Source: a candidate division WWE3 bacterium (GTDB taxonomy: Bacteria; Patescibacteriota; WWE3; 2-01-FULL-39-13). From it: a stretch of 42,506 nucleotides of DNA. The DNA lies in the NCBI GenBank assembly GCA_943354835.1, contig CALRDH010000006.1, positions 1 through 42,506 of the forward strand, in the 5' to 3' direction. The notes under the pieces are model-generated. The model did no database searches, had not been told where the DNA came from, and saw only the letters and a program-made list of their open reading frames with translations. The position numbers and the translations under genes are program-made. Shown one piece after another: positions 21,694 to 29,986 of this stretch. The first letter of the stretch is position 1. Each line of letters opens with the position of its first letter.

Positions 21694-22107
21694 TTAATTT
21701 TTAGAAATTTCCTCGTATGCTTTTTGTATTTGTTTAAAGTCTTTGTCAAATGATTCTATTCCAATCTCTAAGTTTTTTGCTCTTGCAAAAAGGATTATAT
21801 CGACTAGGTCTGTGTTTAAGAGGGGACATAGTGCGATTGCCAGTTTCATGTCTTTGTTGTTATCTATAAATTCAATGCAGCTTGTTTGTACTATGGACTC
21901 AAGGTCCTTTGCGATTTCTGAACGTTCAATTGAATAAACCTTTCTTAAAACATATTCAAATTCGACTACAACTTCGACGGGAATATAGAGTTTGTATCCT
22001 TTGGTGTCTGCATTGTTAAGTATTTCTAAAGCCTTTTCATATTGGGCTTGATTATCTTGCATGAAGAGTCGCACAAGTATATTTGTGTCTAGGATTTTAT
22101 TCTCCAT
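21694..22107 (-). CDS. PIN-domain ribonuclease toxin (VapC-like), second pair
   Basis: The 137-residue protein has the PIN acidic residues: D7 in ILDTNILVRLF, E45 or E48 in VEVVVEFEYVL, the aspartate of NTDLVDIILFA and that of ESFDKDFK. It is encoded just after an AbrB-type antitoxin with an 11-base overlap and abuts the RhuM-type gene tail to tail with no spacer. It should act as an Mg-dependent RNase. Confidence 0.88.
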   Translation of the reverse strand: MENKILDTNILVRLFMQDNQAQYEKALEILNNADTKGYKLYIPVEVVVEFEYVLRKVYSIERSEIAKDLESIVQTSCIEFIDNNKDMKLAIALCPLLNTDLVDIILFARAKNLEIGIESFDKDFKQIQKAYEEISKN

Positions 22108-22390
22108 TATTTATTTTACTTGTAGGCTTTTTAAACTTTTCAAATACCGAATCGGCTTGGGCAGCTTCTTCGATTTCTAAAATCTCGTCAAAATTTTTGC
22201 CTTTGATTGCACTTTTTTTGTGTACACCTAATCTTTGAAAAATGTCGTTGGATTTTGTAAAAGTTAATTTTTCACTTTCCATTTTTGCGACAATCATACT
22301 TCCCGGTTTGAAATTTAGTTTTTCTCTAAATTTGGCTGGAATAGTTATTTGCCCTTGGCTTGTTATAGAAACTAATGCGGTATCGTTCAT
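22097..22390 (-). CDS. AbrB/SpoVT-type antitoxin (VapB-like)
   Basis: The first ~45 residues are a swapped-hairpin AbrB DNA-binding domain (ALVSITSQGQITIPAKFREKLNFKPGSMIVAKM). The remainder, to residue 97, would bind the PIN toxin. It is transcribed from a strong promoter whose -10 ends 6 nt before the ATG, with three GCATTA repeats across the promoter that are the likely binding sites of the antitoxin. Confidence 0.9.
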   Translation of the reverse strand: MNDTALVSITSQGQITIPAKFREKLNFKPGSMIVAKMESEKLTFTKSNDIFQRLGVHKKSAIKGKNFDEILEIEEAAQADSVFEKFKKPTSKINNGE

Positions 22391-27412: not shown

Positions 27413-28084
27413 CTAAAACGAAAGTGGCATTATTTTTGTTTCTTGTGGTAAATCGCCTTTTGATTTTATTACTAAATTTTTTTCAACAATTGCTTCTGTT
27501 CCTGCTTCAGCTAAGAATTCTTGTAATGTTGCAAGTTCGTCATATGCAGGAATCATATTTTCGGATTTGTAGTGCATTGGGATTACGATTTTAGGCTCTA
27601 TTGATTCGATTATTTGCATTGCGATTTTAGGATCAACTGTAAATTTGCCGCCGACAGGAATCATTAAAATATCGACTTCTTCAAGAAGTTCTAATTGGCT
27701 ACTATCAAGTGTGTGTCCGATATCACCTAAATGGGCAACTGTTGCGTCGGCAAAATCATAAACATACATAACATTATTACCTCGTTCTGCACCATTTTTA
27801 TCGTCGTGAAAGCTTTTAATTCCAAAAACTCTTAAACCTTTTAGTTCGTATTCGCCTGGAGTATCAATCAAAAAATATCCATTATTTGCTTCGCCCTCTA
27901 TATTTTTTAGATAAAAATGATCTGGATGACTATGGCTAATCGTTACAATATCGGCTTTTTGCTTTGAATAAGAAAGGCCTACCGCCTTTGGATCAAAAGG
28001 ATCCGTGACAACAGAAACCTCTTCGCCAGTATTAGTTTTTCCCGTAATTAAAAAAGATGAATGACCTAGATAATTAATTTTCAT
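27413..28084 (-). CDS. UPF0173-type metallo-beta-lactamase-fold hydrolase
   Basis: The 223-residue protein starts MKINYLGHSSFLITG and has the metal motif HSHPDHF (51-57), a second histidine in FGIKSFHD, the aspartate in VAHLGDIGHTL and the C-terminal VIPMHYK, as in UPF0173 metal-dependent hydrolases. The substrate is unknown. It is the first gene of a two-gene unit with the Rel protein and has its own promoter. Confidence 0.9.
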   Translation of the reverse strand: MKINYLGHSSFLITGKTNTGEEVSVVTDPFDPKAVGLSYSKQKADIVTISHSHPDHFYLKNIEGEANNGYFLIDTPGEYELKGLRVFGIKSFHDDKNGAERGNNVMYVYDFADATVAHLGDIGHTLDSSQLELLEEVDILMIPVGGKFTVDPKIAMQIIESIEPKIVIPMHYKSENMIPAYDELATLQEFLAEAGTEAIVEKNLVIKSKGDLPQETKIMPLSF

Positions 28085-28099: not shown

Positions 28100-28107
28100 T
28101 GTATTTT

Positions 28108-28131
28108 TGGTGCTGAAGGTGGGAGTTACCC
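28108..28131 (-). repeat. Partial copy of a tRNA 3' end (tRNA-Leu-like)
   Basis: The minus strand ends TCCCACCTTCAGCACCA and continues AAAA. The intact tRNA-Leu at 29900-29986, in the same orientation, ends TCCCACCTTCGGCACCA and also continues AAAA: one mismatch in 21 bases. Further 5' a GGGT is shared after a small gap, but no full T-arm or acceptor 5' strand is present, so this is not a functional tRNA. Confidence 0.55.
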
Positions 28132-28204: not shown

Positions 28205-28470
28205 GCTGACAGCTACGATGCGCTTGCAATGTTTTTTAAAATTTGATAACGTTATAAACGTAAAGGCAATGACGTTGCGACACAACCGAGCCGAGAGAAG
28301 AAAGCCTGAAAGGGCAAGTAGAACTCTCCGGGTAGTACCCGTTATAGTACAATCCGCAAAAAACGGAGCAAGGTTTGGCGAAACGCCAAACGAAATAAGG
28401 TGGCACCGCGACCATATCGCCCTTATAAGCTTATCAATATTTAATTTGGTAGATTTATAGGGGCGATTTT
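28205..28470 (+). promoter_or_regulatory. T-box riboswitch upstream of aspS, probably translational
   Basis: T-boxes sense uncharged tRNA. The signature AAGGTGGCACCGCG lies at 28397-28410. The antiterminator is canonical: AUAAGG (28395-28400) with CCUUAU (28421-28426), bulge UGGCACC, then GCG (28408-28410) with CGC (28418-28420). The competing stem pairs 28416-28428 with 28455-28467 (13 bp, one G-U) and covers the GGGG Shine-Dalgarno; only four U precede the ATG, so control of translation fits best. Stem II is GAGAG (28293-28297) with CTCTC (28324-28328), with AGTAGAA inside. A perfect hairpin lies at 28373-28391. Stem I is unclear; TTGCAAT (28223-28229) with GTTGCGA (28274-28280) could be its base, placing the Asp codon GAC (28271-28273) just above as specifier. 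The 5' end is approximate. Confidence 0.85.
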
Positions 28471-29784
28471 ATGGAAAGAACACACATCTCACAAGTTAAA
28501 GACAAAATTGGACAGCAAGTAAAAATTGCTGGATTTGTTGGTACTGTTCGCGACCAAGGAAGTATAAAGTTTTTAATCATTCGCGACATCACTGGAAGTA
28601 TCCAGGTTGTCGTTACAAAAACCAATGCGGAGGCATTAAAAATTGCTTCGTCTTTAAGTTTAGAATCGGTCGTTGAAATTGTTGGTTCAGTGAAAGAAGA
28701 AAAACAAGCACCTGGTGGAGTCGAAATTCAGATCGAAGAAATAAAAATTTTGTCTTCCTCTATTCCCGAATTGCCTATTCCAGTTGTTGAGAAAAACCAG
28801 GAAGAAACAGATCAGCAAATCCGCTTAGACTGGAGATGGATTGATTTGCGAAAGCCAGAAAAAGCTTTGATTTTCAAAGTGTGGACAGTAATGGAACAAG
28901 CGTTTAGAAATTATTGCATTGAAAATGGATTTATTGAAATTCATTCCCCCAAATTAACAGCAACTGCAACAGAATCTGGCTCTGAATTATTTGAAGTCAA
29001 ATACTTTGAAAAGAAGGCTCACCTGGCTCAATCTCCACAGTTGTATAAACAGATGGCGATGGCGGCAGGTTTTGAAAAGGTTTTTGAAGTGGGACCAGTA
29101 TTTCGCGCAAATCCTTCTTTTACTTCTCGGCACGACACTGAGTTCACAATGTATGACGTGGAGATGTCCTTCATATCTTCGCACCAAGACTTAATGGCAG
29201 AAGAAGAAAGAATGATCGTTGCAATGCTTAAAGCTGTAAAAGAAAAATACGGCGATGAAATACAAAGAGTATATAACCGAGAAGTTATTGTTCCTAAAAT
29301 TCCTTTTCCTATGTTAACAATTAAAGAGGCAAAAGCAATTTTGGGTCGCTTGCATATCCCAAACGAGCGAGGTGATGATATGAGTCCAGAAGAGGAGCGC
29401 GTAATATGTGAACATATAAAGAAAGAAACTGGTAGTGAGTTTTTATTCATTCACGAATTCCCAACTGCCGTTCGCGCTTTTTACAGTATGAGAAAAGAAG
29501 ATGATCCAGCTGTAACAAAGAGCTTTGACTTGTTATGGAATGGTTTGGAAATTACAAGTGGTGCCCAACGAGAACATCGAGTTGAGCAGTTGGAAAAACA
29601 AATAAAAGAGCAGGGGCTAAGCCCAGTGTCTTTTGAGACATACCTAAACTTTTTTAGATATGGCTGTCCACCACACGGAGGTTTTGCTCCGGGTCCTACA
29701 CGAATGTTGATGAAACTCCTTAATATTTCAAACGTACGTGAAGTCACTTATCTTTATCGCGGAGTAAAGCGGTTAACACCTTAA
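28471..29784 (+). CDS. aspS: Aspartyl-tRNA synthetase, archaeal type
   Basis: The 437-residue class IIb synthetase has an N-terminal OB-fold for the anticodon (about 1-105), motif 2 around FEVGPVFRANPSFTSRHDTEFTMYDVEMSF and motif 3 GFAPGPTRMLMKLL near the end. It lacks the ~130-residue GAD insertion of standard bacterial AspRS and matches the shorter archaeal type. Such enzymes are often non-discriminating and charge tRNA-Asn as well, which would require GatCAB; that is not visible here. Translation is probably controlled by the T-box leader immediately upstream. Confidence 0.93.
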   Translation: MERTHISQVKDKIGQQVKIAGFVGTVRDQGSIKFLIIRDITGSIQVVVTKTNAEALKIASSLSLESVVEIVGSVKEEKQAPGGVEIQIEEIKILSSSIPELPIPVVEKNQEETDQQIRLDWRWIDLRKPEKALIFKVWTVMEQAFRNYCIENGFIEIHSPKLTATATESGSELFEVKYFEKKAHLAQSPQLYKQMAMAAGFEKVFEVGPVFRANPSFTSRHDTEFTMYDVEMSFISSHQDLMAEEERMIVAMLKAVKEKYGDEIQRVYNREVIVPKIPFPMLTIKEAKAILGRLHIPNERGDDMSPEEERVICEHIKKETGSEFLFIHEFPTAVRAFYSMRKEDDPAVTKSFDLLWNGLEITSGAQREHRVEQLEKQIKEQGLSPVSFETYLNFFRYGCPPHGGFAPGPTRMLMKLLNISNVREVTYLYRGVKRLTP

Positions 29785-29899
29785 ATTGATGTATTCAGAA
29801 ATTACAAAAAGAATCTAGCCAGCATTTTTTTTAGTATCTCTTGCCAGAGGTCATATCGTCCTACTTTGCTGTCTTTGGGAAAGCTGTTTAGGTTTATTT

Positions 29900-29986
29900 T
29901 GGTGCCGAAGGTGGGAATCGAACCCACATGGAATTGCTTCCACACGATTTTGAGTCGTGCGCGTATGCCAGTTCCGCCACTTCGGC
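29900..29986 (-). tRNA. tRNA-Leu (anticodon CAA)
   Basis: The 87-nt gene has acceptor arms GCCGAAG and CTTCGGC, discriminator A (expected for leucine) and an encoded CCA. The anticodon loop CTCAAAA lies between CACGA and TCGTG. A long variable arm (TGTGGAAGCAATTCCAT) and T-arm GTGGGTTCGATTCCCAC follow. It reads UUG codons. A one-mismatch copy of its 3' end is found at 28108-28131. Confidence 0.95.

Follow-up and report, generated by a model that had tools for sequence, protein, structure and literature searches.

A probable tRNA-Asp-sensing T-box with an ultrashort Stem I in the leader of an archaeal-type aspS gene of a WWE3 bacterium

The DNA analyzed here, referred to as the window, comprises 42,506 nucleotides from a candidate division WWE3 bacterium. 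Its plus strand carries aspS (28471-29784), which codes for an archaeal-type aspartyl-tRNA synthetase (AspRS) of 437 aa and has a start codon aligning with those of relatives. The protein scored above the cut-offs of PRK05159 (515.8 bits) and TIGR00458 (414 bits) and passed models for archaeal-type aspartate--tRNA(Asn) ligase, in agreement with the type assigned to it in an initial annotation of this DNA. A gap of 386 bases separates aspS from a metallo-hydrolase-like gene on the minus strand (27413-28084). This gap holds the leader RNA, a T-box RNA of about 28265-28470 located directly 5' of aspS. The sequence TATAAA (28253-28258, plus strand), read by eye, is a possible -10 element and would place the RNA start at about 28265, the first base of Stem I; a promoter consensus scan listed no element at 28253-28258. 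The leader, originally assumed to begin at 28205, thus probably starts near 28265. The host genome has a size of 884 kb, and ribosomal protein uL30, the absence of which is a known trait of CPR bacteria, was missing in 7/7 genomes of the order. Both observations agree with the CPR host that had been considered probable.

The initial annotation had proposed to run a T-box covariance model on the leader. Using an E-value threshold, Rfam model RF00230 aligned end to end at 28260-28427 with a score of 53.2 bits and an E-value of 5.7e-11; the search of the whole genome gave an E-value of 2.8e-11. The curated gathering cut-off of RF00230 is 93 bits, a curation threshold and not a biological feature. 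As the leader scored below it, the Rfam scan of the window at default thresholds returned tRNAs only and no T-box, and automatic annotation would therefore miss the aspS T-box. In a control search of 14 genomes, T-box matches were obtained in five (Bacillus, Lactococcus, Corynebacterium, Thermus, and Deinobacterium), all of them from phyla with known T-boxes, and the cut-off was passed in only two of these five; hence, the low score of the aspS T-box is not unusual. This score is the only point in favor of a structure that arose by chance, such as a simple hairpin covering the start codon, instead of a T-box. Given the genome-wide E-value, the full-length alignment, the cognate specifier, the discriminator match, the gene context, and the relatives described below, the probability of such a structure is negligible.

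Stem I (28265-28292, plus strand) is ultrashort. According to the Rfam alignment, it contains a GGC/GCC lower stem, a K-turn-like element AUGA..CGAG, and an apical hairpin GUUG-CGACA-CAAC, and in order it reads GGC-AAUGAC-GUUG-CGACA-CAAC-CGA-GCC. The specifier GAC (Asp; 28279-28281) is located in the 5-nt apical loop and pairs with the anticodon GUC. A Stem I that is ultrashort and presents the specifier in its apical loop, as seen here, distinguishes class II or ultrashort T-boxes; Stem I is thus short, as initially described, but it is of the ultrashort type rather than defective or non-canonical. The apical 4 bp were formed in 11/11 aspS leaders, each position showing two to four types of pair, and pairing amounted to 49-53% after the arms had been swapped among the 11 leaders as compared to 100% for the native combinations. 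Since the arms were picked by eye, this co-variation supports Stem I without proving it. The genome's own tRNA-Asp has the anticodon GUC, complementary to the specifier GAC, and the 3' end GCCA, complementary to the UGGC of the bulge; specifier, anticodon, and acceptor end all fit the downstream gene aspS. The tRNA-Asn (GUU) of this genome likewise has G73, therefore only the specifier separates tRNA-Asp from tRNA-Asn.

Downstream of Stem I, further elements of a T-box follow on the plus strand. Stem II (28293-28328), identified by sequence and Rfam alignment, is formed by GAGAG/CUCUC and contains an S-turn-like internal loop AGUA..GAA. The Stem IIA/B region (28329-28350) carries the motif CGGGUAGUACCCGUUAUAGUAC with the conserved Rfam columns CG..CGUUA, and this motif recurs in relatives; sequence motifs and Rfam columns would thus fit a putative S-turn in Stem II and a putative Stem IIA/B pseudoknot. 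Stem III (28373-28391), GUUUGGCG-AAA-CGCCAAAC, is flanked by purines and was found in the Rfam alignment as well as in the MFE fold. The antisequestrator (antiterminator; 28395-28426) is composed of the A1 helix of 6 bp (28395-28400 / 28421-28426), the T-box bulge UGGCACC (28401-28407), and the A2 helix GCGA/UCGC (28408-28411 / 28417-28420). The A1 helix and the bulge had been described correctly, whereas A2 comprises 4 bp instead of 3 bp. Folded alone, the antisequestrator reached -6.9 kcal/mol; the A1 pairs are kept with changed bases in relatives.

The competing fold is a sequestrator hairpin of 25 bp (28412-28474, plus strand) with a free energy of -29.0 kcal/mol. Among 1000 dinucleotide shuffles with a mean of -11.7 (sd 2.8), none was as stable (0/1000, z -6.2), and the whole leader also folded better than shuffles (z -5.4). 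This hairpin includes the alternative 13-bp stem with GGGG that had been noted before (28417-28429 / 28454-28466), but extends beyond it by an upper helix of 7 bp (28431-28437 / 28446-28452) and a closing helix of 5 bp, CCAUA/UAUGG (28412-28416 / 28470-28474), which takes in the start codon. GGGG (28460-28463), a possible Shine-Dalgarno sequence in the 3' arm 7 nt before the ATG, was paired with a probability of 1.0 in the free leader. The four U described in front of the ATG were located at 28466-28469, the first of them within the stem, and the ATG at 28471. Strand 28417-28426 is used by both antisequestrator and sequestrator, and the two folds are mutually exclusive. In addition, the partner of UAUGG in the competing fold, CCAUA, forms the loop of A2; formation of the antisequestrator therefore removes CCAUA from the start codon. 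The loop CCAUA was not found in the relatives' leaders that were read. A platform of this kind, able to pair with the start codon, was seen in none of the relatives either, and hence the sequestrator itself is without covariation support.

The full-length Rfam match, the cognate specifier, the bulge complementary to the acceptor end, and the competing helices bear out the original T-box assignment, and we have little doubt that the aspS leader is a T-box sensing tRNA-Asp. We infer from these elements that the tRNA is bound, that the leader responds to its charging, and that control is exerted on translation. Uncharged tRNA-Asp would hold the antisequestrator and thereby keep strand 28412-28426 off the downstream arm; GGGG and the aspS AUG would be accessible, and more AspRS would be made. 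Charged tRNA would be unable to hold the bulge, the 25-bp hairpin would form, bury GGGG, and end at most four bases from the start codon, with which it can pair, and aspS expression would decrease. We consider it probable, with some reservation, that this explanation holds as a whole, namely, that an ultrashort-Stem-I T-box sensing tRNA-Asp hides or frees GGGG and AUG of aspS.

Control at the level of translation, rather than of transcription or of both, is what we would rather expect; both the place of the hairpin and the weakness of its U-run favor it. The translational control suggested by the initial annotation is hence plausible, although putative: the start codon lies in the competing helix together with GGGG and a proper U-run is absent, but GGGG as a Shine-Dalgarno sequence constitutes weak evidence for it, since this genome makes little use of Shine-Dalgarno sites. 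Within the window, 3/32 genes have a Shine-Dalgarno-like site; the anti-Shine-Dalgarno end of the 16S rRNA, GGCTGGATCACCTCC, is intact in the genome. A TATAAT-like (-10-like) box ending exactly 6 nt before the ATG was observed in 7/32 window genes, which suggests that many genes look leaderless.

Alternatively, the same tRNA-Asp T-box may act as a transcription attenuator, with the hairpin as an intrinsic terminator followed by a short tail, UUUUAUGG, that overlaps the start codon, or it may act at both levels. U-run terminators exist in the aspS leaders of G003 and G006, two genomes of the same order, where 6-8 U follow the hairpins, as they do in the two other T-boxes of this genome. L068, among the nearest AspRS relatives, shares the hairpin UCGCCC..GGGGCGA, followed there by UUUUAAUUU. 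Rare use of Shine-Dalgarno sites also fits attenuation, and so does the hairpin itself, which at -29 kcal/mol behaves like a one-way decision. When the antisequestrator was forced in the folding model, the cost was about 15 kcal/mol, with the start region then engaged in another weak predicted pairing; we therefore doubt that the finished mRNA switches reversibly, and consider it more likely that the decision falls while transcription is under way. Nevertheless, we regard attenuation as the less probable reading. The 8 bases that follow the stem include only 5 T, and the tail score of 4.37 was the lowest of nine T-boxes compared, with values of 5.5-6.5 in terminator-type relatives and 4.59 in L068. 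Furthermore, a terminator scan does not list the hairpin of the aspS leader, the zone of termination would include the start codon, whose pairing with the A2 loop serves no purpose in a terminator.

Among Actinobacteria, translational T-boxes are known in which Stem I is ultrashort and its apical loop carries the specifier (PMC7583486). The aspS leader shares with these class II T-boxes (Nocardia farcinica, Mycobacterium ileS; PMC7583486, PMC10651847) both features and the K-turn-like base, furthermore Stem II, Stem IIA/B, Stem III, an antisequestrator with a 7-nt bulge, and a helix over the initiation region. It differs from the actinobacterial ileS T-boxes in that, judged from its sequence, it would sense tRNA-Asp and not tRNA-Ile, in its CPR host, and in a competing helix that can pair with the start codon in a genome where Shine-Dalgarno sequences are rare. 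The bulge, A1/A2, Stem III, a mutually exclusive helix, and control of a synthetase are shared with the class I transcriptional T-boxes of Firmicutes (RF00230; Wels et al. 2008, PMC2494555), whereas the long Stem I with its elbow-binding module and a proper U-run are missing. T-boxes acting on transcription depend, as a rule, on a long Stem I (PMC7583486).

Among other CPR aspS leaders, T-boxes were found in L068, G003, G005, G006, and family f12. They share the ultrashort Stem I, the same type of gene, and in most cases the UGGC bulge; in contrast to the leader studied here, most of them carry U-run terminators. Relatives which pair an ultrashort Stem I with a terminator would test the rule that transcriptional T-boxes require a long one. 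The specifier GAC is also present in the aspS leader of L068, and GUGAC was read by eye in the loop of seven family f12 leaders that fell under the Rfam threshold applied. The aspS leaders of G003, G005, and G006, which belong to the same order, have AAC (Asn) instead of GAC. In the leaders L039, L052, and L056, AAC in place of GAC stands before an archaeal-type aspS. T-boxes with AAC may sense tRNA-Asn in cases in which both tRNAs are charged by the enzyme. The idea that the Asp or Asn specifier tracks the presence of an AsnRS was rejected as stated: the asnS cut-off was passed by no genome tested, and the second synthetase of the genome studied here is archaeal-type AspRS-like. The corresponding gene (L207, G000:C2:90604-91908) is without a T-box match and lies, together with its ortholog in G002, on a very long branch.

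In the tree, the AspRS of the window grouped with sequences from Daviesbacteria, Ryanbacteria, Kuenenbacteria, G005, and L068, and not with the family member G003; L068, whose AspRS is closely related, has a T-box of the same plan. A lack of this aspS in G002, a genome of the same genus, would be conjectural, since its contig begins inside dnaB, the neighbor gene. A T-box on an archaeal-type AspRS had been expected to be unusual. This expectation, and with it the idea that T-boxes on archaeal-type AspRS are new, was weakened by a Bacilli genome in which a T-box, a nitroreductase-like gene, hisS, and an archaeal-type aspS are arranged in tandem.

T-box and aspS are flanked by two copies of a 20-base direct repeat on the plus strand, which correspond to the 3' end of a tRNA-Leu. 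The left copy (28105-28124) is 19/20 identical to the right one (29897-29916), which belongs to a tRNA-Leu(CAA) gene on the minus strand (29900-29986); the spacing is 1,792 bases. The GC3 of aspS, 0.317, was the highest of ten genes compared (others 0.20-0.30). Repeat and GC3 therefore suggest that the T-box-aspS cassette may have been acquired at the tRNA 3' end, which stays a suggestion because no integrase was found inside the cassette. Control may have relaxed after such a transfer, since the cassette is flanked by repeats and a second archaeal-type AspRS-like gene exists in the genome. Together with a score under the Rfam cut-off, these observations would fit a decayed, non-functional T-box imported with aspS. 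We consider such decay very unlikely, as none of the elements, neither the specifier nor the bulge nor either of the competing helices, is damaged, they fit the genome's own tRNA-Asp, and CPR T-boxes generally score low.

T-box matches were obtained at three places in this genome, in 6/7 genomes of the order, in 24/45 of the class, and in 125/381 of the phylum at E <= 1e-4; 13 of these 125 genomes had a match over the Rfam cut-off, and for them automatic 'T-box leader' labels may already exist. The genes behind these T-boxes mostly code for aminoacyl-tRNA synthetases, which were assigned by Pfam (Tyr, Arg, His, Leu, Trp, Pro, Asp/Asn, Ile) or read from the sequence (Ser, Thr, Val, Gly); others code for argininosuccinate synthase, ATP sulfurylase, a GCS2-like, and an AstE/AspA-like protein. 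Contamination with Firmicutes DNA is unlikely because many CPR genomes carry T-boxes in front of synthetase genes of their own. According to the prevailing view, CPR bacteria regulate little and take up most amino acids from outside; a sensor of charged tRNA on synthetase genes would be a direct way for them to follow the amino acid supply from a host. Most T-boxes described so far are from Firmicutes and Actinobacteria, and Chloroflexi, Deinococcus, and Proteobacteria contribute few (PMC2494555). Among the freely accessible journal papers searched, none dealing with T-boxes in CPR bacteria was found. The kind of T-box is already known; its host range is broad and apparently new. Its occurrence in about one-third of the sampled CPR genomes provides the phylum with native RNA switches; reviewers of the field have called for inducible expression tools and named riboswitches as candidates (PMC11665869). 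More generally, CPR bacteria may possess, in T-box control, a regulatory layer that is ancient or has been exchanged widely, mostly missed owing to scores below the Rfam cut-off, in which the ultrashort apical-loop Stem I is joined to terminators as well as to start-codon-occluding helices, and in which aspS leaders switch between GAC and AAC on an archaeal-type, possibly non-discriminating AspRS. We rate the chances of this broader picture as even.

Additional T-boxes were observed in the genome studied here (G000) and in related genomes. Tyr-type T-boxes (UAC, UGGU) with a terminator are present in L001 (1501-2732; G000:C1:209788 on), L004, and L010. In G005, a small ORF and tyrS follow the Tyr-type T-box; in G000 and G002, it is followed by a protein of 295 aa found only in that genus. 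For the protein behind L001, no Pfam, NCBIfam, or PDB match was obtained and the AlphaFold model was useless (pLDDT 36.5), and its role as a tRNA-using enzyme was dismissed as a candidate. A tRNA gene with the anticodon UAU lies about 60 bases upstream of the Tyr-type T-box in G000. His-type T-boxes (CAC, UGGG) occur in L002 (1501-3162), L007, and L028, the latter two on the reverse strand; two copies from the same genus have near-identical terminators and precede unrelated-looking unknown proteins (270 and 162 aa versus 423 aa). The L028 protein is weakly similar to that of L007 (E about 1e-3 in a set of 12 proteins). T-boxes of L023, L025, L026, and L033, from several genomes of the class, precede members of a family of about 445 aa, for which Pfam detected a Glycos_transf_3 domain in L023 and L025. 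Finally, two toxin-antitoxin-like pairs, each consisting of a small DNA-binding-like and a PIN-like protein as judged by sequence alone, are located in the window at 714-1396 and 21694-22390.
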